This document shows positions 1,715 through 18,541 of a DNA stretch of 64,000 nt, piece after piece. Position 1 is the stretch's first letter; the number at the start of each line of letters is the position of its first letter. The notes beneath the pieces were generated by a model. The model searched no databases. It was not told where the DNA came from and saw nothing but the letters and a program-made list of their open reading frames with translations. The DNA is taken from NCBI GenBank assembly GCA_027310825.1, contig DAIDAC010000001.1, positions 1 to 64,000 on the forward strand. The letters run 5' to 3'. This DNA is from Candidatus Micrarchaeaceae archaeon. GTDB lineage: Archaea; Micrarchaeota; Micrarchaeia; Micrarchaeales; Micrarchaeaceae. Both the position numbers and the translations under genes were made by a program.

Positions 1715-2842
1715 TCACCTCTTGTAGCACACATAAGACTTTTGCCTGTTGAATTGCATCACATAGAAAGTATATAAAGTGAGGCTCATTCCTACTACTT
1801 TCACAAGAATATGAACCGGCCAGAATAGAATTACGAATACGGGATGGTACTGCCTGATCTCTTTAACAGTGTATAGTATTAATGTAATTGTGATATAGAA
1901 GGAGAGCAGAAGATATGGATTGAATCCATTCAGCAATGCCAATGCGGTGCTAAGTGCCAATGCGATAGGAAAAACGTACCATATGTATATCAATCCAAAC
2001 CCTCCGAATTTTACTTTCGGTTCTGCATTTTTGAAAAAGAGTAGCCACTGTGGAGACATTTGAAGATGTCCTAAAAACCAGCGCGATATCTGCAATGACC
2101 ATGCAGTAAACGTCCCCTTTTCTAATTCGTACGCCAACGGTACAGGTATGCAGTCCAATTTAAGCATTTTCCTTTCATACGCTCTAAGCATAAGTTTTGA
2201 ATCGTCCACCATGCCTTCCCTGATGTTCGCAATAAGCTGTCGTCTCTTCGCTAAGTAAAATGCGCCAGGCAGATAATAGCCAAAGCCTAGTGCACCGCGT
2301 CCCTTCTGTAGTATGAATTGCCTCACCAATTTCTTGATTGAACAAAATCTGGAGAAGTTTGTAGTGTATTTTGGCAGAATCAAACCAAAACAGATGTCGG
2401 CGCCTGTCTGCTGCGCAAAACCTAGAAGAGTACTAATAGAATTATTGCGTAGTATGATGTCTGCGTTCAGTATGCAGACAAATTCCGTCTTTGCCGCGTT
2501 AAGACCAAGAATGCACGACCTGACCAGAGAGGGTGTTTCCCGATGTAATACGCGTATAGATTTGTATGATTTCCAGTAGCTTCGGATAAGTCTTTCCTGC
2601 TGCAGGTTTCTGCCGGTGAATATTACATAGAGATTTATGCGCCGTGGGTTCTGCTTTGACAAACTAGCCAGGCACGTTTTAACCAACTCTGTTTTCTCCT
2701 TGTAGATAGGAAGTATAACGCTGATTTCGTGTTCAGAATCTTTGGCTATGACGCGCTTTGGGGATTTGAGCAATCCGGCAGTAAATAGGATTAAGTATCC
2801 AATCCCTAGAACATCCATAAAAATTAGAATTTGGGCTAGCAT
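1715..2842 (-). CDS. membrane glycosyltransferase family 2
   Basis: The 375-residue protein starts with one membrane helix (residues ~5-25). A GT2 domain follows: ISVILPIYKE at the nucleotide-binding strand, an Asp motif in FVCILNADI, VDDSK in the acceptor region, and QISRW, the QxxRW-type motif of processive GT2 enzymes. Three or four membrane helices form the C-terminus. This is the layout of hyaluronan/cellulose-synthase-like or polyprenyl-linked glycosyltransferases at the cytoplasmic membrane. It overlaps the kinase gene upstream by 7 nt and ends 4 nt before the CYTH start, so it belongs to the same operon. The sugar and acceptor are unknown. Confidence 0.85.
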   Translation of the reverse strand: MLAQILIFMDVLGIGYLILFTAGLLKSPKRVIAKDSEHEISVILPIYKEKTELVKTCLASLSKQNPRRINLYVIFTGRNLQQERLIRSYWKSYKSIRVLHRETPSLVRSCILGLNAAKTEFVCILNADIILRNNSISTLLGFAQQTGADICFGLILPKYTTNFSRFCSIKKLVRQFILQKGRGALGFGYYLPGAFYLAKRRQLIANIREGMVDDSKLMLRAYERKMLKLDCIPVPLAYELEKGTFTAWSLQISRWFLGHLQMSPQWLLFFKNAEPKVKFGGFGLIYIWYVFPIALALSTALALLNGFNPYLLLSFYITITLILYTVKEIRQYHPVFVILFWPVHILVKVVGMSLTLYTFYVMQFNRQKSYVCYKR

Positions 2843-3549
2843 GTCGCGTCACAACCACATTGGGTTCGTATAAACTTCGATAATTCGGAAGCTATGTCCT
2901 CTGGACGTCTATCCGCATCTATGAGTTCCGTGTGTATGCCTTCTGTAAATTGAGTTTCTCCGCCATTAAAGAGTTTTAAGTATCTATCTTGGACAGTGGC
3001 TAAGCGCACCTTATCCGTATCGCTCAGATATTCGCCTTTGCTATTTAACCTGTGTTCAACAGTATTTAGTGATGTGTGGAGCAAGAAAGCCATGTCTGGC
3101 CTGAGGCTTCTTTTGAAAAGGCTTTGCCTCATTTCATCTGAAAGTTTTTTTCTGAGCCCGTCTTCTTTTCCTCCCGAATAAGCATAATTTGCAAGAACAC
3201 TGCGATCGCCAAGTATTATTAATGGTTGACTGGTTTTGTTTGCAATGTTCTGTCTCAGCTTCCGTTCAAAGAACAGGGTGTCTGCAGCTATTAAAAGAGT
3301 ATGGATTTCCGGAAATGACACATATATGAATTCTAGATATCCGGGAATTCTAAAAAGTGTCTTCAGAAGACTGGCCGTAAAGGTTTGCCCATATGCAGGA
3401 ATTTTGTAATCGATAGTCGGTATTCTCGCTTTTCTCAATTCTGTTCTGACAAGACCGAGAACGGTTGATTTTCCGACACCGTCCACTCCTTCTATCGATA
3501 CGAAAACTGGCTTTGCAAGGCTAGTCTTACTATACGGCATTAGATCCAA
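2836..3549 (-). CDS. thymidylate kinase-like (d)NMP kinase
   Basis: The 237-residue protein has a TMPK-type Walker A, EGVDGVGKST (residues ~20-29), and the DR motif of thymidylate kinases in GDRSVLANYAYSGG. A charged lid-like region lies around ERKLRQNIANK. The length is near that of TMPKs (about 205-230). It overlaps the radical-SAM-like gene upstream by 10 nt and the glycosyltransferase downstream by 7 nt. An operon of this kind makes a dedicated pathway kinase more likely than the housekeeping Tmk, so I give no symbol. Confidence 0.75.
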   Translation of the reverse strand: MDLMPYSKTSLAKPVFVSIEGVDGVGKSTVLGLVRTELRKARIPTIDYKIPAYGQTFTASLLKTLFRIPGYLEFIYVSFPEIHTLLIAADTLFFERKLRQNIANKTSQPLIILGDRSVLANYAYSGGKEDGLRKKLSDEMRQSLFKRSLRPDMAFLLHTSLNTVEHRLNSKGEYLSDTDKVRLATVQDRYLKLFNGGETQFTEGIHTELIDADRRPEDIASELSKFIRTQCGCDATC

Positions 3550-4793
3550 CCCAAGAAAGCTTCGTGGTTTAGCGATGTCCTCATGGCCTTTTCACAGAAG
3601 AATGGTCTGAGTCCAGAGCTCCTCACTATTTCCCCGTATCTTTTATAGAAACGCAAGGCATCTTCAGTTTTTGGTACACGGATTCCGGACGGCAGTGTAT
3701 TCCCGTGGTCCATGTGTAGTATGTTCGCTCCTGCTGCTACTCCCATAGAATTCAATTCTTCTATTCCGGAGAGCAAGCTTTCTGCAGGTTCAAGTCCAAA
3801 AACAAAACCTGCCCACACCTTTCCTTCCCCGACAAGGTCTAAAGCGTGTCTATATGCTTCTAGATAGTGCTCCCAAGAAACGTGCCTTTGTTTGCCCGGA
3901 GCCAGCTGCTTGAATAGTTCTCGGTGATACACCTCCGGATTGAAGGCAAATTGTACGCCGAAATCAGCTATCCTGTCTATCAAAGATAAGTCTCTTGGCG
4001 GAGTCAAAATTACAGTAGTTTCCAAGCCAGACAGTTTTGTGACGCGTTCGTTTACCGCCTTCATTACTTCGTAGTATATCGACCATTGGGGATCAGTATC
4101 TATGGAACTTCCGGCAGTAAAGATCAGGTGTTTGTGTCCGCCAAAATCATATTTCAGGGCCTCTGCAAGCGCAGCAACTGCGTTTTCTATCGTCCTTTCC
4201 CGTTTTTTCTGCCACCAGGCAGTAGACTCGTCTTTTGACATCCCAGTTATTTCTGAAATTCTAAGCAGATCTTGACCGGCGAATTTGTTGGCTATTGAAT
4301 TAATTCCGCAGAATTTGCAAGCTTCGTGCTCAGTATAGAATGCACAGTCGTGCCAGAGCCAAACGTTGACTTCGCATAAGCCGCAATTGCTTATCACTCT
4401 ATTCACTGGTGTGCCGTCTGGTGTTTTTGAATCCCTGAATGGTGGATGCTTGAGCAGCTCTACGCGAACTTGAAGATACTCGCCGGTATTTACGTCTTGA
4501 ATTCTTGGAGCCCCATCGACAAAAACTAATTTGTATGGGGTTGTGCGGTAGTTTACACAGCTTGCTGCAGATGTCCTACCAGCCAAGTCAGTCAGTAACA
4601 ATTCCTGGGGAACTAATTTTTTCTCCGCTTCGCTTATGTGGTGGCTACTGTTATAACCAAAATCCTCGCGTTTATAGCCGCTTAGATGGCGTATTGCATC
4701 GAAATCGATTCCAATTCCGTTTGTTAGCATCGCAGCTTTGGCGTACACTACAGACTCCTTGCTTATTTCCACATCTGTTGTCTTATTCGGCAT
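3540..4793 (-). CDS. radical SAM-like iron-sulfur enzyme
   Basis: About 417 residues. The cysteine-rich segment at residues ~130-160 reads CGLCEVNVWLWHDC and then CKFCGI, ending in a CxxC pair as in radical SAM enzymes, but with wider spacing than the classic CxxxCxxC. After it come TIM-barrel-like alternating strands: HLIFTAGSS, ETTVILTPP, QFAFNPEVYH, VWAGFVFGLEPAESLL and AGANILHMDHG. These fit the radical SAM barrel, with a GLEP motif late in the fold. I chose ATG 4793, which has GAGTGAT upstream, over the GTG at 4802. It is the first gene of the leftward operon. The reaction is unknown. Confidence 0.65.
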   Translation of the reverse strand: MPNKTTDVEISKESVVYAKAAMLTNGIGIDFDAIRHLSGYKREDFGYNSSHHISEAEKKLVPQELLLTDLAGRTSAASCVNYRTTPYKLVFVDGAPRIQDVNTGEYLQVRVELLKHPPFRDSKTPDGTPVNRVISNCGLCEVNVWLWHDCAFYTEHEACKFCGINSIANKFAGQDLLRISEITGMSKDESTAWWQKKRERTIENAVAALAEALKYDFGGHKHLIFTAGSSIDTDPQWSIYYEVMKAVNERVTKLSGLETTVILTPPRDLSLIDRIADFGVQFAFNPEVYHRELFKQLAPGKQRHVSWEHYLEAYRHALDLVGEGKVWAGFVFGLEPAESLLSGIEELNSMGVAAGANILHMDHGNTLPSGIRVPKTEDALRFYKRYGEIVRSSGLRPFFCEKAMRTSLNHEAFLGWI

Positions 4794-4811
4794 CGTAATC
4801 ACTCAGCATAA

Positions 4812-5183
4812 TCATCTCGAGGCGTAAGAGCCTGATATGTAGTCTCTGTCAGTGTGCTTGCATTTAGTACACGTGAATGTGACAACACCCTGCTCATCAT
4901 TCATCCTCGAAGCGCCTATCTCCCCCATAATGGCCCTATCATTTCCACAATGTTCACAAATTCTTTCCACTGTAGAGCTGTCGTTTCCACTAAGAATAAT
5001 GATTTTCCCCTTATCTTCAGCCGGCTCGCTAACCGTTATAGTGGCAGTGGGGGTAGATCCATCGTCTCTTCGTACGATTTCACTATAATCGCATGTGCCA
5101 CATGTCCTGAGAAGTCTGCCATCGATGCGTTTCGGCACTAGGAGTCGCTTGCAATTCGGGCAAAATGATGTCTTACTCTGCAT
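4812..5183 (-). CDS. transcription factor S-like zinc ribbon protein (TFS/RpoM family)
   Basis: Starting at ATG 5183 gives 123 residues, close to the ~110 of archaeal TFS. The N-terminal ribbon has FCPNCKRLL and TCGTC, as in RNA polymerase subunit M/Rpb9. The C-terminal ribbon has CEHCGNDRA and CTKCKHTDRDY, with the acidic pair DE in MNDEQG where TFS carries the catalytic DE that stimulates transcript cleavage. The longer frame upstream of 5183 is basic, AT-rich and has no conserved look. TFS helps stalled RNA polymerase cleave its transcript and restart. Paralogues of TFS can instead inhibit polymerase, so activity is not certain. Confidence 0.75.
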   Translation of the reverse strand: MQSKTSFCPNCKRLLVPKRIDGRLLRTCGTCDYSEIVRRDDGSTPTATITVSEPAEDKGKIIILSGNDSSTVERICEHCGNDRAIMGEIGASRMNDEQGVVTFTCTKCKHTDRDYISGSYASR

Positions 5184-5564
5184 AGAATTTTCACGTTTAT
5201 TATAATATTTATGGTTTTTGGTGATGGAAATACTGAGAGACAAAATATTTTTCATGATAATCAATCGTCAACGTTTTATCTGGCGTTAAAGGCTTGCTCG
5301 CTGGCTTGATGGTCGGTGTGGATCCAAGAACATTGAACAGAATAACCGGGGCAGCAAGAGCAAGACAAAAGGGTGGATTGCTCTGGCCCCGGCTTATTCA
5401 GCATTTCGTAGATTGGCGTATACTTCCCCACCGTAACATCCATGTGACTCTATCTATGAACGTACCAGATTTTAAACCATGTAAATTATATAACAAAAAT
5501 TATGCTTAGGATATACATGGCGAATTACTTATGAAAAAAATATAAGTTTCCTAATACAACCTAA
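5184..5564. other. non-coding stretch between TFS-like gene and operon promoter
   Basis: About 380 nt without a convincing gene. A 71-codon frame at 5294-5509 has no ribosome site, no domain and mixed composition; I treat it as chance or a decayed remnant. No tRNA or repeat structure was seen. Confidence 0.4.
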
Positions 5565-5577
5565 GGTATATATATTA
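5565..5577 (+). promoter_or_regulatory. TATA box of the ParB-like paralogue operon
   Basis: GGTATATATATTA is a strong archaeal TATA element. A transcript would start near 5595-5600, about 20-25 nt before the ATG at 5620, which has AAGTGAAGGG upstream. No equally clear TATA box precedes the three downstream genes, which supports one operon. Confidence 0.6.
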
Positions 5578-5619
5578 TGTAAATCCAAGATTTGTTATAG
5601 AATTTATGTAAGTGAAGGG

Positions 5620-6882
5620 ATGGAGAGAGACCGGAAGGAATTCTACAAGAGGTTTGTCAAGTCGTCGCTATTGGCTGGAGAATCTGATCGTCCACTCCTT
5701 CTGGATGGTGGAAAACATCATTTTATGATACCGATGACGTATGTTACTCCGAGCTATCTAGCAGTACAGAGGTTTGCAGTGGTCTCGGCATTGACGAATT
5801 TGGGCAACAGCGTATCAATATTCTTACACGACAACAACATACTTGCACACAAACATCCGAGACGAATGTCGCTGAAACGTACAAAAGTGTCACTGAGTAG
5901 TCACGTTGAAGACATAGTTGACGAGATAATGCTTTTGCTAGTTGTTCTTGGCGCAAATCTGACAAACGTGAAGATAATAAGATCATCTGATGCGTGGGCA
6001 ACTATATCCCAGAATAAGGCAGATTTTTTTGCGTTCTATGAACTCCTCGGAGAGGTAAAACTTGAGAAGATGGTAGAAGAAGAAGGCAAGTTTTATAGCG
6101 CAGCGTATCATGCTATCCAAAAGCCGTTCGACATGTACTTTGCAAATAACTGTGCAAGACTTTCCAAGGTTGTCGAAGACAATCCTGATTTCATAATAGC
6201 GCCAGCAGATAGAGCAGAAGTATACAAATACATAAGAAGTAAGATGCTAGTACTTCATAATGGGGGAGATGACGATAACATAGTTCCTGCACTCTGCCAC
6301 ACAAAACAACTTGCAAATCTGCAGCACAAGGATTCGTGGCCGTCATGCAACATGAGCCTTGGTGAGATAGGGGATATCGTAGGCAAGGCCAGATTGGCAG
6401 TATCAGAAAGGGCAAACGTCTCTTCTGCTTTTGTTGCTCCAATGTCTGAGTTTTTGCAGGAAACGTCGCTGTTGAAGAAGCCAGTACAGACACCAAAAAA
6501 TCCTTCTGATGCAGAGCTTGCAGAAGGCATACACACAATACTCAACGCAATAACATGTAAGGCAAGAGATTGCACAACGGAAAGTACAAAGGAGGTGCTC
6601 GTCAACGCTAAGTTCGACTTTCAGGAAGTCCGTACTATACTCGCAAGCAAAACGATGCTCAAAACCCTGCTTTACTGCAACGGAGAACTGACAAACTCAG
6701 AAATAGCAAGAAAGCTTGGCCTACAGCTAAGCAACGTCAGCACATACATAAACAAGATGAGGAAGCTTAGCCTAGTCACAACAGACACTAAACCTAAGAT
6801 AAAGTTCAGCCGCTTGATCATAGATGTAGATGCATTGATGAAAAATGAGGACAGCAACACAAAAGAACACAACAACTTTTAA
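5620..6882 (+). CDS. winged-helix protein with possible class I aminoacyl-tRNA-synthetase-like N-terminal domain
   Basis: The 420-residue protein ends in a clear helix-turn-helix (residues ~345-395): LLYCNGELTNSEIARKLG followed by LSNVSTYINKMRKL. The first ~290 residues match no family I can name with certainty. By eye, the order of elements follows the TrpRS in this same window (15854-16969): LGNSVSIFLHD against its LGARCYFGIAD, then VEDIVDEIMLLLVVLGAN against its AKQIAIDNATDVLALGVD. The HIGH and KMSKS motifs are absent, so an active synthetase is unlikely; a nucleotide-sensing fold is possible. It is the first gene of the operon, 8 nt before the Nudix paralogue's ATG, and may be its regulator. 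Confidence 0.6.
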   Translation: MERDRKEFYKRFVKSSLLAGESDRPLLLDGGKHHFMIPMTYVTPSYLAVQRFAVVSALTNLGNSVSIFLHDNNILAHKHPRRMSLKRTKVSLSSHVEDIVDEIMLLLVVLGANLTNVKIIRSSDAWATISQNKADFFAFYELLGEVKLEKMVEEEGKFYSAAYHAIQKPFDMYFANNCARLSKVVEDNPDFIIAPADRAEVYKYIRSKMLVLHNGGDDDNIVPALCHTKQLANLQHKDSWPSCNMSLGEIGDIVGKARLAVSERANVSSAFVAPMSEFLQETSLLKKPVQTPKNPSDAELAEGIHTILNAITCKARDCTTESTKEVLVNAKFDFQEVRTILASKTMLKTLLYCNGELTNSEIARKLGLQLSNVSTYINKMRKLSLVTTDTKPKIKFSRLIIDVDALMKNEDSNTKEHNNF

Positions 6883-6890
6883 TCGTGAAC

Positions 6891-8708
6891 ATGATGGGAG
6901 GAACAAAGCACTACGATATGCATATACCTAAGGATGAGCTTCTCAGCAAAATGGATGCTACGCCAAGACTGAGAAGACTCCTAGAAGAGGTTTATGCCGT
7001 TTTAACTCCGAGAGATCTCTATACCTTGGCCACTACAAAAGAACCTTCTGCTCTCGCCATACACCCGCTTAGCATAGAGGACGTTACTGCGATGCTTAGA
7101 GCAGTTACAGATCCGCACGGTGGAAAGCCGTATGCGCATGCTGAGATAGAGTTCGCTGATGTTCCGATATCGAAAAACACACTAAGCATACAGACAGTAG
7201 TTAACGTTGACAAGCTTGAGTCGCTTTGCAATGCACACGACACGCTGAAGACGGTCATGGCCAACGGAATCGCAGCACTCATCGTGCACCAGCCGTCTAG
7301 ATATGCAGCGTTTTATTTCCCGCCAGTAGTCAATTATTTCGATAGAGAAAGCTTCGAACCTGCATTGCAAAACCTTGAAGAAAGAATAAGGACAGGGCTC
7401 GACAAGCCGATAATAACGGTAAATTGCGATCCTTATCCCGAAGCTGGCTTGAAATTAATCATGCTAGCACCAATAAGGACAGGAAAAACTTTGTTATGTG
7501 CAACACGATTGCAAAGAAGCCTTGGATCGTTAGGTGCAGCGAATCAGGGATGTTATTCAAAAAATATTGCAGTGTTCGACGACATAGTGAAGAGAGCGAT
7601 GGATACTAAATTTCAATACGTTCCGCGACTCAATGGTCTACCATATGGTGACTTTACAGAGTTGTGGAAGAAGGACACGACAAGCATCCGCGATCGTATA
7701 CGCTCGATCTTTCAATTAACATCTGGCAGAGGGACCTATCCTACAAATGTGCACGGCCAAATAACAGAAGAGCAATTAGCCGAAATGTTCCTTTCTGGCG
7801 CTAGTGACCAGGAATACGCCCAAACATATGTGCTTCTTAGATATCTTGCACTCTTTGGAAAATGCCCGGCGAGAACAAACGAACTGATTACACGCGCGCT
7901 TGTGGATAGAGCAAAGCGAGAGGGATTCAATAGATTGTCTGTAGGCGCCGTGATAAAAAACGAAAAGGGAGTATTGGCTTTGAAACGCGCGGCACATGAT
8001 AGTTTTGCCGGTCAATTTGTTGTGCCTGGAGGAGGCATTGAAAACGGGGAAACAATCGAGCAGGCAATAGCACGTGAAGTGAAGGAGGAGACTGGCTTAG
8101 AAGTGACAAGCATAGAGGAGTATTTAGGTTGTATTGATTTAGCCTCCAGTGGGGGCAATCCGGTAAGAAAATTCAATTTCGCAGTTACTGTCAAACAGGG
8201 AGACATTAAACTATCGAAAGACCATGAGGAGTATGCATGGGTTGGACTCGACAACTTGACAAGAATCGGAATCAGAGAAAATGAATTATCGTTGTTCAGG
8301 AAGATTCTAACAGAAAAAGAGCGATGCTACGACCAATTTTTGACACTTGAACCCACCTTTAGTAAACATGGACGTGTTTTGTTTGCAGAACCAGAGGTAA
8401 TCGGCCATGGAAGTAGAGTTCAGATAGATCTTAACGATTATTTGCGTAGATTCGTAGCCGAAACCGAAGGACAACGTGTTGTTCCTGTCGTGAAAGATGG
8501 AACCCATAGAACATTTGCAGCGTTGGCGGCAGGAAGGCAAACCGAACCGAGTGTAGTAATCAGGCACTCTGAAGAAATACCGACAAACTTGCCGATTCCG
8601 TTCTCGGGAGTTCCACCAACAAGGCAGCTGCTGCGCAAACCTGAGATGTATCCGGGCCTGTTCAAAGAAGGCATAGGAGAACTGAAGAGCGTAGGGGTTG
8701 ATTCGTAA
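6891..8708 (+). CDS. ParB/DGQHR-like paralogue 1 with embedded Nudix hydrolase domain
   Basis: About 605 residues. The N-terminal ~170 residues carry the block shared with the next two genes: an SIQTVVN strand, then AFYFPPVVNYFDRESF and PALQNLEE. Residues ~345-480 form a Nudix hydrolase with a complete box (GX5EX7REVKEETG). Residues ~530-600 contain VVPVVKDGTHR, the counterpart of the 'DGHHR' motif in the two paralogues. That motif resembles the DG-x-HR loop of the ParB/sulfiredoxin and DGQHR (DndB-like) families. The Nudix domain is absent from the paralogues and lies between the two shared blocks, so it was gained by one copy or lost by the others. GTG 6885 is an alternative start. Function is unknown; nucleotide or NDP-X recognition is an inference. 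Confidence 0.75.
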   Translation: MMGGTKHYDMHIPKDELLSKMDATPRLRRLLEEVYAVLTPRDLYTLATTKEPSALAIHPLSIEDVTAMLRAVTDPHGGKPYAHAEIEFADVPISKNTLSIQTVVNVDKLESLCNAHDTLKTVMANGIAALIVHQPSRYAAFYFPPVVNYFDRESFEPALQNLEERIRTGLDKPIITVNCDPYPEAGLKLIMLAPIRTGKTLLCATRLQRSLGSLGAANQGCYSKNIAVFDDIVKRAMDTKFQYVPRLNGLPYGDFTELWKKDTTSIRDRIRSIFQLTSGRGTYPTNVHGQITEEQLAEMFLSGASDQEYAQTYVLLRYLALFGKCPARTNELITRALVDRAKREGFNRLSVGAVIKNEKGVLALKRAAHDSFAGQFVVPGGGIENGETIEQAIAREVKEETGLEVTSIEEYLGCIDLASSGGNPVRKFNFAVTVKQGDIKLSKDHEEYAWVGLDNLTRIGIRENELSLFRKILTEKERCYDQFLTLEPTFSKHGRVLFAEPEVIGHGSRVQIDLNDYLRRFVAETEGQRVVPVVKDGTHRTFAALAAGRQTEPSVVIRHSEEIPTNLPIPFSGVPPTRQLLRKPEMYPGLFKEGIGELKSVGVDS

Positions 8709-8719
8709 AGGTATAAAAT

Positions 8720-10012
8720 ATGGTAGACAAATCGGGATTTAGGTTCTGCAAACCGAAAGATGCTTTCCTGAATAGTGTGAACCATTCGAATGAACTTAGC
8801 AAGGCTGTTGCGAATGTAGATTATATGGTTCCACTAAGAAACCTAGTACGACTTACTACGCCGAGATGGACTGTAGATAGAAGCAGGGCAGTTAAGCGAA
8901 TCCCATTAAGTGACAGTAGCACTGTAGAACTTTTGAGATCGGCAAAACATTACGAAAATGCAAATATAGTGATTGACAATGAATTGCTCCACACAAGAAC
9001 GCTATGTATGCAGACTACAGTAACAGCTGAGAGATTCTTGACGCTATCAGACGACAGGGCCGATTGCAACCTAGTTGAGTCACCTGGTCATGCATACGTT
9101 ATGAGAGCCGAGATTGATGGCGAAACTCTCGCTGCACTTTATCTACCTCCGATCATGAACTACTTCAATAGAGAAAAATTCAATCCGGCGTTAGCGAACC
9201 TGGAAAGTCTGGCAGAAGCAAAAAAAAGAATGCCAGTTAGCATTGAGGCCGATGATTTGACAGAAACCACAATGAGTTGGATAATTTCCAGGTCACCACG
9301 GATACAAGTGCAGAAAGGATTTGGTCCGCAACATTTGCTCGAGATGAACCTTAGGGAAATAACAGATGAAATAATTAGTGAATTGGATAAATTGGATAGA
9401 ATCCGTGGCAGAGAGAACGCCATGTCAAATTTGGATGATATCGCTAAGGGAATATTTTTGAAGGTCAGAGGCATTGGAAACGACACGCGGTCATTCTATT
9501 TGGCCACAATGGCACTCAAAGCAGTAATAGACATACAGAGAGAATGTTCAGATAGTAAAACAGGAGAGCCTTTCCTCGAACACCTGCTAAGTGCGCTGTT
9601 AAGATATCAGAGATCACTGCATTTGTCAAAAACGACGCCGGTAAACGAGGCGTTTTTGGCAGAACACATATGGCTACTCGTATATAAGGACTTGCATAAA
9701 TCACGGTATGGCGGTATAGAACCGGGGATTGCTGCGCAAAGAATACTCAATGAAGCTTACGAAGACATTGGTGCTAGGAAAGTAATCCCGGTGATAAAGG
9801 ACGGGCACCACAGGGCAATCAGCTCCATGCTAATGGGCTGGTCAAAACTCAGGTTTGTGAAGATACGCGAATCGACAGAGGCCCCATCTAGCGTTCCCAC
9901 TAGACTGATGTACCTGAGGCTTACTGCACACGATACAGAAAAGGCGTACAAATATCCAGGTATCTACGAATCTGAAAAGACGGAACTGTCCGAAATATGT
10001 GCCGACGCCTAG
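8720..10012 (+). CDS. ParB/DGQHR-like paralogue 2
   Basis: 430 residues, starting at ATG 8720 behind GGTATAAA and 11 nt after paralogue 1. It has the shared N-terminal block: an LCMQTTVTAERF strand, then LYLPPIMNYFNREKF at ~140 and PALANLESL. The middle is helical, and a stretch containing AVIDIQRE and FLEHLL is similar to paralogue 3. The C-terminal motif KVIPVIKDGHHRAISSM (~355-371) is followed by VKIRESTEAPSSVP. The DGHHR loop is like those of ParB-type CTPases and DGQHR proteins, where it binds phosphates; this assignment rests on the motif alone. No catalytic domain of known type was seen. Confidence 0.7.
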   Translation: MVDKSGFRFCKPKDAFLNSVNHSNELSKAVANVDYMVPLRNLVRLTTPRWTVDRSRAVKRIPLSDSSTVELLRSAKHYENANIVIDNELLHTRTLCMQTTVTAERFLTLSDDRADCNLVESPGHAYVMRAEIDGETLAALYLPPIMNYFNREKFNPALANLESLAEAKKRMPVSIEADDLTETTMSWIISRSPRIQVQKGFGPQHLLEMNLREITDEIISELDKLDRIRGRENAMSNLDDIAKGIFLKVRGIGNDTRSFYLATMALKAVIDIQRECSDSKTGEPFLEHLLSALLRYQRSLHLSKTTPVNEAFLAEHIWLLVYKDLHKSRYGGIEPGIAAQRILNEAYEDIGARKVIPVIKDGHHRAISSMLMGWSKLRFVKIRESTEAPSSVPTRLMYLRLTAHDTEKAYKYPGIYESEKTELSEICADA

Positions 10013-10031
10013 AGCATACAGGTATGAGAAC

Positions 10032-11465
10032 ATGGTAAACAGACAAGCAACCGATGCGCCCGGATATAAATTCCAGTATCGGGGAAGGGACTTTCTCAAC
10101 AGGGTCAATTGCCCAGTAAGCATCAGACACGCAATAATAGATGACACGCTAATAATCCCTTTGAGGAGTCTTGTCCAGATAATAAGAGCTTACAAAGAAA
10201 ATGGCCATGATTACCCGCTTGAACGTTATTCTATGCACGAGTCAGAACTCGTTGACTTCTTAAGGCCGATTGAACAGTACAAAAATGCAGAAATAACTTT
10301 AGAACGTGTGCAACTCCGGCCGAGAACCTTGTGCATGCAGACAGTCGTAAACTCAAAGAAATTTTTTAACTTGACAAATGGCGGGGCTGACCTTGAAAAT
10401 TTGGATAAGCCGGGACAACCTTGCATGATACGTTACTCGCCTGCCGGTCCGATACTGGCTGCTTTCTATCTGCCACCTATAATTAATTATTTCGATAGGA
10501 GTTCGTTCGAACCTGCACTGCAGAATCTAGAGAAGTTCGCACAAGCAGATAGAAGAGTAATTTTGTCTAACGGCGAGGAAGGGATTTTTGATGTGGCGAA
10601 AAAATGGAGTGAAAGGAAACAAATGAAAGCAAGCAATTTGCATTATGTTGTAGAAGGTGCAGAACAAGACAGAATCGACGGCATAGGGCTTGAGTTACTG
10701 CGCGACCCTTCTATGTTCGCTGAGACACCGCCGTCACAGTCTGAAAAAGCAAAGGAGTTCATGGAGCGCGCAAGGCGTGCATTTGGTATGATCGAGAGCT
10801 TATATACCGGCATGAAGCGTCCCAGCAAAGCGGAGGAAAGTAAGGTGTTTGATGCGTTGATGAAAACATTGCCGCGAGAGCATGCAGGCACTGTCATCAA
10901 AGCATTCATTGATATAGAGCAAGAAACTGAAGGCAATGCGCACTTGGAAGCGTTCTTGGAGCGTCTTCTCAATATGGCAGTGAAGCGAACGAGAAGCCTC
11001 AGGTACATGACCCCTCCAATCGATGAGGCTTTCCATTCTCAACAGATAGCGTTTGCCTTGTATAATGAATTGAAGTGGGCAGCTGCAAAAAGAGTTACAC
11101 AAAATACAGAGGCACCAAAGCAAAAGCCTTCAATGTGGCGCGATGTGGCAAAAGATAAAGACAGATTTACGATAAGTGTTGATCCGCGACGTCTTTTGCG
11201 GGAAGCCAGAGAAGAGCTCGACGGAAAAAAGACGATTCCGGTGATAAAAGATGGCCACCACAGAGCAATCAGCGCGTTCCTCACAGGCTGGCCAGAACTT
11301 AGGTTCATTGCAATAAGAAACTCGACAGAGATCCCGTCTGGAGTTCCGGTTCGCCTGATGAACCTGAGAATGGTTGACTACGATCCTGCAGAGCGCGAGT
11401 TCAAGTATCTGGGCGCTTACGAGAAAGGCATAGCTGACCTGACAAAGATCGGTGCAGACCCTTAA
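10032..11465 (+). CDS. ParB/DGQHR-like paralogue 3
   Basis: About 477 residues from ATG 10032, preceded by AGGTATGAG. A GTG at 9999 would overlap the previous gene and is an alternative start. The shared block reads LCMQTVVNSKKFF and FYLPPIINYFDRSSF, then PALQNLEKF. The helical middle contains AFIDIEQETEG and FLERLL, matching paralogue 2. The C-terminal block has KKTIPVIKDGHHRAISAF, then IAIRNSTEIPSGVPVRLM, with conservation continuing to the end. Paralogues 2 and 3 are closer to each other than either is to paralogue 1. No gene follows on the same strand before the HMG-CoA synthase promoter, so this ends the operon. Confidence 0.7.
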   Translation: MVNRQATDAPGYKFQYRGRDFLNRVNCPVSIRHAIIDDTLIIPLRSLVQIIRAYKENGHDYPLERYSMHESELVDFLRPIEQYKNAEITLERVQLRPRTLCMQTVVNSKKFFNLTNGGADLENLDKPGQPCMIRYSPAGPILAAFYLPPIINYFDRSSFEPALQNLEKFAQADRRVILSNGEEGIFDVAKKWSERKQMKASNLHYVVEGAEQDRIDGIGLELLRDPSMFAETPPSQSEKAKEFMERARRAFGMIESLYTGMKRPSKAEESKVFDALMKTLPREHAGTVIKAFIDIEQETEGNAHLEAFLERLLNMAVKRTRSLRYMTPPIDEAFHSQQIAFALYNELKWAAAKRVTQNTEAPKQKPSMWRDVAKDKDRFTISVDPRRLLREAREELDGKKTIPVIKDGHHRAISAFLTGWPELRFIAIRNSTEIPSGVPVRLMNLRMVDYDPAEREFKYLGAYEKGIADLTKIGADP

Positions 11466-11491: not shown

Positions 11492-11502
11492 CATATATAT
11501 AC
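11492..11502 (+). promoter_or_regulatory. TATA box of HMG-CoA synthase gene
   Basis: CATATATATAC lies about 50 nt before ATG 11547. A start site near 11522 would leave a short leader containing GGTCAGGTAATA. This makes the TTG at 11508 unlikely as the start, because it would lie upstream of the expected transcript. Confidence 0.5.
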
Positions 11503-11546
11503 CTTATTTGTTCACTCTTCCTTCGGCGATTGGTCAGGTAATATCA

Positions 11547-13286
11547 ATGTCGATGGCAGAGGCTAGACCTAGAAGCAAAATTGGCATCAATAAAATGATA
11601 GTAACAACGCCGGGCATAACACTTTCCCCAATGGCGCTTGCAGAATCCATAACGCACGATCAGATGGCTGCAAAAGGCAAGGAGTACCATAGGGCGCGCG
11701 ACGCCGTTAGAAAGGAACATTCAATGATACAGGAGTGGGAAATAGACGAACACGTAAAGCCTGCTATGGAGAGCGAGACCGAAGGCAAGATCAGGAAAGG
11801 CCTTGGTGTCGATTTAATAAGAATGCCTGGCTACTCGGAGAGCAATGTCACATTTGTCGCCAACATGCTTTATGAATTTATGAAAAAGCTTGCCGATGAC
11901 AAAGAATCGATGGGAAGGATTTCACAAACTCCGATCAGAACAATTTATTACGGAACAGAAAGCAACCCAGACAGAAGCAGGCCAGAGATCGAGCCTGCGC
12001 TGCTTCTTGCGGGATCAAAGCTTCTTGCTGAGAACGAGGCAAAGTACCGCCCGATTATGGAAATGATGAGGTCTGCTGCCGTGGTGCCAGTCACATTCGC
12101 ATGCGTTGGTGGAGTGCTCTCGTTAAACGAGGCAGTCTCAAGAGTTAGGTACTCTGCAGAGAACGGCCACAGAGAATCTGCTTTAGTTGTCACTGCCGAC
12201 ACAGCGCTATACAATTCCAAGTCGGCTCCAGGAGCAGAGCCAACCCAGGGTGCTGCAGGAGCATTGATGTGGGTCACGAACATGCCAAACCTTGTCGAGA
12301 TATTCGACAGATGGGCAGGCTATCATCTTCCTCTCTCTGATTTCACAAAGTTCCAAGAAGAAACTCCTGTTGTCCACGGAAAATTCTCTGAAATCGTTTA
12401 CGTTTATACAGTAGGAAAGGCGCTCCAAAGACTTGAAGAGGAGTATAGCAGCCTCGGCAACGGAAACAGCAAAATACTCGAAGAGATAGATTTCTTCATT
12501 TGCCACGTGCCATTCCCGAAGCAGGCAATCTATCTTGCAAGCTTTTTGTTCGCGCACCATATGAAGAACAAAAATCCTGCGCTTTTCGCTGCAATGCAGT
12601 CCAGGCCAGAAGTGGGGCCGGATCCGCTTATAGGATATGCGAAGCTTACAGAACTTATCGAAGCGCGGTTCAGAGAATTCAACACCAACGGCCACGGGGT
12701 TCAGCATGAACACGCAGTCATAGCTTACATAGAGAACGAACCTATGATCAAGGCATACTGGGATTGGTTGAAGAGGGTGAGAGAAACGCCTGAATTCGAG
12801 AAGTTTGTTGAAGGCCTTCACATAAAGGAGGCGCTAAAGCTTCCTTCTTTGGTTGGCAACTCTTACACAACATCTGTGACTATGAGCCTTGCAAGCCTGG
12901 TTGTCAACGGATTCGGAAGAAAAACATGGCATGCAAACAACCTCGGAGTGCTCGCCGGCTACGGAAGCGGAGCACAGGCCATGGTATTCCCAATAAGAAT
13001 AGTTGCAAGGCCTGACCTGATTGCAGACCATCTTTCCGTCGACATAGACGTAGATGGAAAGTATCAACTTGATGCAGCTGGGTACAGAGAACTCCATGGA
13101 GTGCACCTCCACGGCGATTCGGCTCGTATGCTTACTGGAGAAGACCTTGTGGAAAAGGACAAGAAGCTTCTGAGGAGCGAGACGCTTCCGAAAGGATTCC
13201 ATGTAGTGCGAAGGAATCCGAACGGAACAGGAGAATACGTCTACTCCGACGGAATGCACATAGAACCAGTCAAAATCAGGTTTTAG
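11547..13286 (+). CDS. hydroxymethylglutaryl-CoA synthase family protein
   Basis: HMG-CoA synthase condenses acetyl-CoA with acetoacetyl-CoA in the mevalonate pathway that feeds archaeal lipids. The thiolase-like fold shows IRTIYYGTESNPD, the catalytic cysteine region VTFACVGGVLSLNEAV, SALVVTADTALY, and GAEPTQGAAGALMW, which matches the conserved GAGA-type segment of the family. A later segment, FFICHVPFPKQA, carries the catalytic histidine (HxPFxK pattern). The chosen ATG gives 579 residues, longer than the usual 350-520; the C-terminal ~150 residues with GNSYTTSVTMSLASLV keep the family's NxYT motif. It stands alone on the plus strand, with its own promoter. Confidence 0.85.
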   Translation: MSMAEARPRSKIGINKMIVTTPGITLSPMALAESITHDQMAAKGKEYHRARDAVRKEHSMIQEWEIDEHVKPAMESETEGKIRKGLGVDLIRMPGYSESNVTFVANMLYEFMKKLADDKESMGRISQTPIRTIYYGTESNPDRSRPEIEPALLLAGSKLLAENEAKYRPIMEMMRSAAVVPVTFACVGGVLSLNEAVSRVRYSAENGHRESALVVTADTALYNSKSAPGAEPTQGAAGALMWVTNMPNLVEIFDRWAGYHLPLSDFTKFQEETPVVHGKFSEIVYVYTVGKALQRLEEEYSSLGNGNSKILEEIDFFICHVPFPKQAIYLASFLFAHHMKNKNPALFAAMQSRPEVGPDPLIGYAKLTELIEARFREFNTNGHGVQHEHAVIAYIENEPMIKAYWDWLKRVRETPEFEKFVEGLHIKEALKLPSLVGNSYTTSVTMSLASLVVNGFGRKTWHANNLGVLAGYGSGAQAMVFPIRIVARPDLIADHLSVDIDVDGKYQLDAAGYRELHGVHLHGDSARMLTGEDLVEKDKKLLRSETLPKGFHVVRRNPNGTGEYVYSDGMHIEPVKIRF

Positions 13287-16972: not shown

Positions 16973-18541
16973 ATGCCAGGCGAAGAGGTAGACAAAGAGG
17001 TTCAGGAGATAGGCCTCAGCACTGCGAAAAGAGGCGTCATATTTCTGCTTGGGAAGTTCGCTTCCTCGCTGGTCGTCCTTTTCCTCTTGGTATTCCTTGC
17101 ACGATATCTCCAGCCTGCCGACTACGGAATATACAGCATAGCCGTGGCTTTCTCAGGTCTTCTTGGCATCGGAAGCGCGTTCGGGATAGGCACAGCATTC
17201 AGGAAGATGCTGCCAGAGATTAAGAAGGACCACAAACTCGTCAACGAGATAATAAGCAACGGCTACGTCCTTGCTTCTGGCATTGGATTGGCAATAGGGA
17301 TAGCAGGCTACCTTGCGAGCGGATACATAGCTACCTCGCTGTATGGAAATGCCGCACTCACGTTTCCGCTCCAGCTTGCGTCGATAGCAGAGTTCATAGG
17401 CGTGCTCTTCAACCTTGCATTGGCTGCGCTTGTCGGATTGAACCTGGTGAAGGAGGCGACCATCAGCAATATCGCATATTCAATCTTCAACCTGATCGCA
17501 TCGGTAGGACTTGTGATCGCAGGCTATGGAGTAGTCGGCGCAGTGGCTGGAATGCTGGTTGGCCTCCTGGCAGGCTCGCTCGTCGGCCTTGCCTACATAG
17601 TAATCCAAAAGTGGCACAGGCTTGTAAGCCCCACAAGGAAAGCCATGAAGAAACTGACAGGCTTTTCAATACCAGTCGTCACGTCGCACGTGGCCACTCT
17701 TGGCGCGCAGAACCTCGCCGTGATGCTCCTCGGGCTGTTCGCCACTTCGGTTATAGTCGGAAACTACAGCGCGGCGTTCAAGCTGGCCAGGTTCATAGAG
17801 CTAAGCATAACGTCGATAACTTTTGTGCTTCTGCCGGCTTTCTCTAGCACGCTCTCCAGCGAGAACGTAGCGCACAAAATAGGCAGCATATACAACAAAA
17901 GCCTCTACTACACTGCCTTGATTCTATTCCCGTTGGTGGCTTACATGGCATCGACTGCAACACCGTGGCTCAAACTGCTGGTCTCGTCGGGATACACACT
18001 CGCCCCGCAGTATTTCGTGATCATAATAGCAGGCATGGCGCTTGGACTAATAGGCACCTATGCAGGCACGCTTGTGGTCGGACAGGGAGATGTGAAGAGA
18101 TTTATGAAATACCAGGTGCTAGCGGTTGTGATACAGGTTGCCTTGCTGCTGGCGCTCACTCCGTATCTGCAGGCCGTCGGAGTCCTGGTGGCGCTGTTCG
18201 CGATAACGCCGATAGTTCTTGACATAATCTATATGAAAGCGCTTGAAGACCAGTTCAAGTTCAAGCACCAGCTCAGGCAGTTCTCGATAGTAGCAGTGTC
18301 GTCGATAGCGATAGGGTTGGCGCTTTACGCGCTTTCGATCTACCTGCAGCAGCACAGCTACCTCATAGCGGTCAACGCAGTGCTTGCCCTCCTGCTTTTC
18401 CCGCCAGTAATTGGGCTGCTCGGAGGCATCAAGGCGAAGGACATAAAGTTCATCAGGGATACAGCGGAAAGGCTGAAGCCGATAAGATGGCTTGTCCACC
18501 CGATTGTGTCCTACGCAGCGATCTTCGCAAGAAAAGATTAA
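16973..18541 (+). CDS. polysaccharide/lipid-linked sugar flippase (MOP superfamily)
   Basis: 522 residues with 12-14 hydrophobic helices, starting after a charged N-terminus (GVIFLLGKFASSLVVLFLLV). The YLQPADYGIYSIAVAFSGLL segment is typical of Wzx-like flippases, which move polyprenyl-linked sugars across the membrane. Its partners may be the sulfoquinovose synthase at 20.9 kb and GT2 enzymes; this link is an inference. It follows trpS with a 3-nt gap, and the tRNA-Thr gene follows it. Confidence 0.8.
   Translation: MPGEEVDKEVQEIGLSTAKRGVIFLLGKFASSLVVLFLLVFLARYLQPADYGIYSIAVAFSGLLGIGSAFGIGTAFRKMLPEIKKDHKLVNEIISNGYVLASGIGLAIGIAGYLASGYIATSLYGNAALTFPLQLASIAEFIGVLFNLALAALVGLNLVKEATISNIAYSIFNLIASVGLVIAGYGVVGAVAGMLVGLLAGSLVGLAYIVIQKWHRLVSPTRKAMKKLTGFSIPVVTSHVATLGAQNLAVMLLGLFATSVIVGNYSAAFKLARFIELSITSITFVLLPAFSSTLSSENVAHKIGSIYNKSLYYTALILFPLVAYMASTATPWLKLLVSSGYTLAPQYFVIIIAGMALGLIGTYAGTLVVGQGDVKRFMKYQVLAVVIQVALLLALTPYLQAVGVLVALFAITPIVLDIIYMKALEDQFKFKHQLRQFSIVAVSSIAIGLALYALSIYLQQHSYLIAVNAVLALLLFPPVIGLLGGIKAKDIKFIRDTAERLKPIRWLVHPIVSYAAIFARKD

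Follow-up and report, generated by a model that had tools for sequence, protein, structure and literature searches.

Three tandem paralogues, likely distant relatives of the ParB/sulfiredoxin superfamily, in a four-gene archaeal cluster with a nested NUDIX domain

We analysed 64,000 nucleotides (the window) from the start of contig C7 in the genome of a Candidatus Micrarchaeaceae archaeon (975 kb, ~92% complete). Four open reading frames on the + strand occupy positions 5620-6882, 6885-8708, 8720-10012 and 9999-11465 and are spaced by +2, +11 and -14 nt. This tight packing on one strand supports co-transcription of genes 1 to 4 and bears out the original prediction of a single operon. TATA-like stretches are found ahead of gene 1 and, at ~11493-11502, ahead of the next gene, so that 5565-11465 is a sensible unit. 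The features of the region are:

2836..3549, - strand: divergent neighbour, thymidylate-kinase-like P-loop kinase (PF02223, E 5e-15)
3540..4802, - strand: divergent neighbour, variant radical SAM protein (NF045502, 195 bits)
4812..5264, - strand: divergent neighbour, zinc-ribbon (TFS-like) protein, which also adjoins gene-1 relatives
5567..5578, + strand: TATA-like stretch TATATATATTAT, 42-53 nt 5' of gene 1, predicted from sequence only
5620..6882, + strand: gene 1, 420 aa, ~340-residue N-terminal region and C-terminal winged helix
6658..6813, + strand: winged-helix DNA-binding domain of gene 1 (aa ~347-398; PF13412, E 1.3e-6)
6885..8708, + strand: gene 2, 607 aa, ParB-like family copy with nested NUDIX
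7320..7395, + strand: first shared block of gene 2, PPVVNYFDRESFEPALQNLEERIR..., proposed Box I (from a relative's model)
7932..8267, + strand: NUDIX hydrolase domain of gene 2 (aa 350-461; PF00293, E 9.2e-20)
8496..8510, + strand: DGTHR motif of gene 2, proposed Box II / P motif (from sequence)
8720..10012, + strand: gene 3, 430 aa, family copy with all-helical insert
9137..9217, + strand: first shared block of gene 3, LPPIMNYFNREKFNPALANLE, proposed Box I (from sequence and model)
9227..9721, + strand: helical insert of gene 3 (aa ~170-334), partly similar in gene 4; relatives have no insert
9800..9814, + strand: DGHHR motif of gene 3, in a modelled strand-turn-helix-strand (aa 355-383)
9999..11465, + strand: gene 4, 488 aa, family copy with helical insert; 14 nt overlap with gene 3
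10461..10553, + strand: first shared block of gene 4, LPPIINYFDRSSFEPALQNLE, proposed Box I (from sequence)
11250..11264, + strand: DGHHR motif of gene 4 (from sequence)

The G+C content is 0.41-0.45 across the first 11 kb of the window and ~0.47-0.50 further on. The cluster adjoins a block comprising an HMG-CoA-synthase-like gene, a TyrRS-type gene and a gene at 16973. Congeners retain this block in part, but none of the six that were examined has the cluster upstream of it. Because it is missing there and its G+C content is lower, the cluster is probably an accessory segment. The HMG-CoA-synthase-like gene (11508-13286, 592 aa) is diverged and common to part of the genus, and its product scores 118 versus 800 bits, far under the family cut-offs. 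The - strand between 476 and 5264 encodes a zinc ribbon, a variant radical SAM protein, a thymidylate-kinase-like kinase, a glycosyltransferase, a CYTH protein and a methyltransferase, and gene-1 relatives have similar flanking sets. The kinase falls under the dTMP-kinase cut-off (TIGR00041, 65.7 vs 83.25), and the cyaB match of the CYTH protein (62.9 bits) is over its cut-off.

Genes 2, 3 and 4 are paralogues. BLASTP comparisons gave 226 bits for genes 3 and 4, 75 bits for genes 2 and 4 and 62 bits for genes 2 and 3, and a search of the organism's own genome gave E values of 2e-31 and 6e-11. The two shared blocks from which the paralogy had been predicted are kept in all three copies. The first block had been described as N-terminal; it is indeed shared, but it starts ~140-160 residues in and is preceded by a conserved region of ~140 residues. 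The proteins had otherwise been assigned to no recognised family, which missed the NUDIX domain between the two blocks of gene 2. This domain scores 71.4 bits against the PF00293 cut-off of 21.1, and its Nudix box GX5EX7REUXEEXGU is intact (aa 383-405). In all three copies the inserts sit between the two boxes. Gene 2 has the NUDIX domain with its flanks there, and gene 3 has helices (AF2 model, pLDDT 71, pTM 0.72), to which part of the gene 4 insert is similar. The likeness between these last two extends over ~65 residues; the insert of gene 2 has no clear similarity to either. Neither gene 3 nor gene 4 matched Pfam.

Using a profile model of the family (A3), we found single-copy relatives of ~285 aa in 24 other genomes, or 25 of the 164 genomes of the order when the present one is included (a few of the hits are fragments). 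The relatives' genomes are from GTDB and carry the names Micrarchaeota, Mancarchaeum or Marsarchaeota. A profile search of 301 genomes of the phylum added no genome beyond the order. Genes 2-4 match the profile over their full length with E values of 1e-77 to 1e-100, in a model that contains the genes themselves; independent BLAST comparisons with relatives gave 26-75 bits. Three copies, or inserts, occur only in the present genome among the family carriers, the others having a single gene. Genes 2, 3 and 4 form a clade in the tree (UFBoot 90), within which genes 3 and 4 are sisters (UFBoot 100). In one genus (L066, L067, L070-L072 and L074) the neighbours of the DGxHR gene are constant and, judged by eye, include primase small subunit-like, DUF373-like and ribosomal protein genes.

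The family of genes 2-4 is likely to be distantly related to the ParB/sulfiredoxin (Srx) superfamily, and the link runs via the relatives. PF24392 (Parb-CE) was listed for 9 of 18 family members at E<=1 (best 1.3e-6), and at least two members exceeded its curated cut-off of 23 across the DGxHR region (L085, 28.9 bits; L021, 27.6 bits). In contrast, genes 2-4 had no match to PF24392 at E<=1, the best stretches span ~40-55 of the 147 profile positions, and the family differs from PF24392 by its extra N-terminal region and inserts.

To compare structures, we used the model of a relative (L082; pLDDT 91, pTM 0.88). From residue 152 onwards this model consists of a strand, a long helix, two strands, a helix, a strand leading into DG, a helix starting at THR and a strand. 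In the models of L082 and gene 3, a GxxR-type P motif, DG[TH]HR, lies between a strand and a helix. We infer that the first strand and helix may correspond to ParB Box I and DGTHR to Box II. PDB proteins with DGxHR include SerK (IVDGHHRW) and SbnI (VIDGVHRY); the catalytic residue of SerK is Glu30. A Foldseek search with the L082 core against 350,542 PDB chains placed SerK first (E 0.34) and Srx third (E 0.81), both with low TM, and the top 50 also held ParB-CDP and archaeal ParB-N, none of them individually significant. Among the 50 matches listed in the viral search, ~12 were named ParB or ParB/Sulfiredoxin. No Foldseek search gave a significant match (E ~0.1 or worse throughout, low TM), and with the gene 3 model, where the helical insert dominates, no ParB appeared in the top 50.

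Profile comparisons by sequence gave a similar picture. The family profile had no match in the PDB, and HHalign against ten plasmid ParB proteins gave a probability of 1.4%, not clearly over controls; identity with classical ParB was rejected. Canonical ParB of ParABS systems has in common with genes 2-4 a possible Box I and Box II of the CTPase fold, whereas genes 2-4 have no ParA neighbour, ParB HTH, dimerisation domain or significant profile match. DndB and DGQHR proteins likewise contain a DG-x-HR loop and belong to the ParB superfamily; the motif here, however, is DG[TH]HR, no DndB/DGQHR model in Pfam or NCBIfam matched and no dnd genes were noticed nearby. Of the ParB/DGQHR likeness first suggested for these genes, a distant ParB/Srx relationship is supported, the DndB/DGQHR part is not. 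The non-significant Foldseek and HHalign scores would also be expected if the proteins had an unrelated fold and a DGxHR motif of independent origin, in which case no nucleotide function would be implied. This is rather improbable, given that L085 and L021 exceed the PF24392 cut-off, that ParB/Srx entries recur at the top structural ranks and that the modelled order of strand, DGxHR, helix and strand is that of ParB Box II.

In the relatives, the family gene is paired with a gene for a HAD phosphatase. At 14 loci the HAD gene starts inside the last part of the family gene, with an overlap of 1-17 nt; at one locus it lies 9 nt downstream and at another (G098) nearby upstream. The partner is a stand-alone protein of ~180 aa with weak and mixed Pfam matches. 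The sole PDB match of its profile is to residues 211-294 of Pnkp1 (E 9e-6), a bacterial RNA-repair kinase-phosphatase, from which it differs in standing alone. A single-sequence search with one relative as query found no HAD partner in the window or in the rest of this ~92% complete genome. In one genome (G022, L024:3826-4814) a free NUDIX gene and a GNAT-like acetyltransferase gene lie 3' of the DGxHR-HAD pair on the same strand.

The archaeal protein SerK was formerly annotated as ParB and is an ADP-dependent serine kinase (PMC5120207). By analogy, the core of genes 2-4 could phosphorylate a small molecule, for example an amino acid, in a metabolic kinase-phosphatase pair in which HAD or NUDIX completes or reverses the step. 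Such a pair would be in keeping with the first rank of SerK for the core model and with the DGHHR that the two have in common, and the free serine kinases SerK and SbnI resemble the family also in having no ParB-type HTH. Nevertheless, we consider it quite unlikely: the matches are not significant by structure or sequence, the HAD partner is closer to polynucleotide phosphatase than to known phosphoserine phosphatase, and the NUDIX domain indicates nucleotide-type substrates. The coupled HAD gene of the relatives and the separation of Box I and Box II by inserts here are further differences from SerK and SbnI.

The explanation that we prefer for the paralogy, operon packing, nested NUDIX, family membership and HAD pairing in relatives has, in our estimate, about an even chance of being correct. 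It states that genes 2-4 encode ParB/Srx-like nucleotide-binding enzymes of phosphoryl chemistry that work with a phosphohydrolase, HAD in the relatives and NUDIX here. Each copy would combine the conserved N-terminal region with one ParB-like core carrying Box I (PPxxNYFxRxxFxPALxNLE) and Box II (KDGxHR). The core would most likely bind an NTP or NDP and perform phosphoryl transfer or hydrolysis on a nucleotide or nucleic-acid end. In the relatives, the translationally coupled Pnkp1-type HAD phosphatase would act as the phosphohydrolase partner in trans. Here, the gene would have been triplicated and the copies would all have gained their inserts at a single position, between the two boxes; the NUDIX pyrophosphohydrolase of gene 2 may replace HAD in cis. 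Gene 1 would contribute its winged helix and might control the cluster in response to a ligand. A bolder version, which we regard as very unlikely, holds that DGxHR and HAD proteins form a new nucleic-acid end-healing pair, with a ParB/Srx-fold kinase in place of the P-loop kinase of polynucleotide kinase-phosphatase, rewired here with NUDIX inside the kinase fold.

The view is gaining ground that the ParB fold serves as a general module for NTP binding, well past DNA segregation. ParB folds with lineage-specific fused domains and versatile NTP binding have been described, and SerK/Srx-type enzymes fall within the fold (PMC12704722). Nudix is not named in the main text of this survey, and in comparison with the fusions described there the NUDIX domain of gene 2 is nested inside the core, not appended. 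Under our preferred explanation, the family would add to the fold an archaeal branch that has diverged deeply and is regularly partnered by a phosphatase, as well as a NUDIX enzyme nested between two proposed nucleotide-binding boxes. With the overlapping gene pairs, the biochemistry can be tested directly on two small proteins.

The cluster had originally been proposed to be a defence, modification or element-control system. In its most explicit form, this would be a conflict or anti-virus module in which nucleotide-degrading effectors of the ParB-CE type have multiplied and diverged under the control of a winged-helix sensor. The name of PF24392, Parb-CE, and the suggestion in the Dnd literature that ParB proteins of conflict systems may degrade nucleotides (PMC10853773) are in line with such a module, as are the tandem diverged copies with different inserts and the fact that congeners have the conserved HMG-CoA-synthase/TyrRS block but not the accessory segment next to it. 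The distribution is also patchy, and near-identical family copies occur in two families of the order (G027/G076) and point to lateral transfer, with cross-contamination of draft genomes as an alternative. PADLOC detected a weak resemblance of the gene 1 winged helix to the Csa3/CasR type (E ~1e-5) and a match of gene 2 that was confined to the NUDIX part (PDC-S07), yet it returned no defence model for genes 3-4. Moreover, most neighbours of the relatives look like housekeeping genes and, across one genus, they are constant; there is no linked nuclease, protease or membrane effector; and the viral contigs searched contained no relative of the DGxHR family or of the gene 1 family. The earlier claim is not borne out by the PADLOC result and the housekeeping-like context. 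We judge the conflict module unlikely, and a defence role in general possible but not favoured.

The operon had been described as led by a winged-helix protein. Gene 1 does contain a winged helix, but only within aa ~347-398 of 420. CARF/Csa3-type matches fell at aa ~285-399, which is essentially the winged-helix end, and profiles of gene 1 found only winged-helix and chance matches in the PDB. A TyrRS/TrpRS-like domain at the N-terminus was considered and rejected (HHalign probability 1.1%, p 0.05). The gene 1 family is present in 10 of the 164 genomes of the order, where a divergent MoaA-like radical SAM gene (7), thymidylate- or uridine-kinase-like genes, CYTH-like proteins, NUDIX and zinc ribbons recur nearby. 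Comparable genes near gene 1 here encode a zinc ribbon, a different radical SAM protein, a kinase and CYTH. This recurrence suggests that gene 1 may be part of a nucleotide-related neighbourhood that adjoins the DGxHR genes here. Since gene 1 is a member of another family, which has neighbours of its own, it does not have to be a regulator dedicated to genes 2-4. The idea that it forms one conserved system with the DGxHR family was also considered and rejected: the two families co-occur in only 3 genomes, on separate contigs in the other two. The link may therefore be particular to this genome.

One gene-1 relative (L034 and L035, in G044) is apparently split across two contig ends, and its neighbourhood is incomplete. 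Four MoaA-like radical SAM proteins (L100:7370-8398, L104:912-1928, L032:2682-3713 and L034:973-1980) score far under the MoaA cut-offs. They contain a spaced C-x3-C-x9-C motif and match prokaryotic viperin weakly (L100, E 1e-7), and their genes adjoin a winged-helix gene and nucleotide-kinase-like genes.
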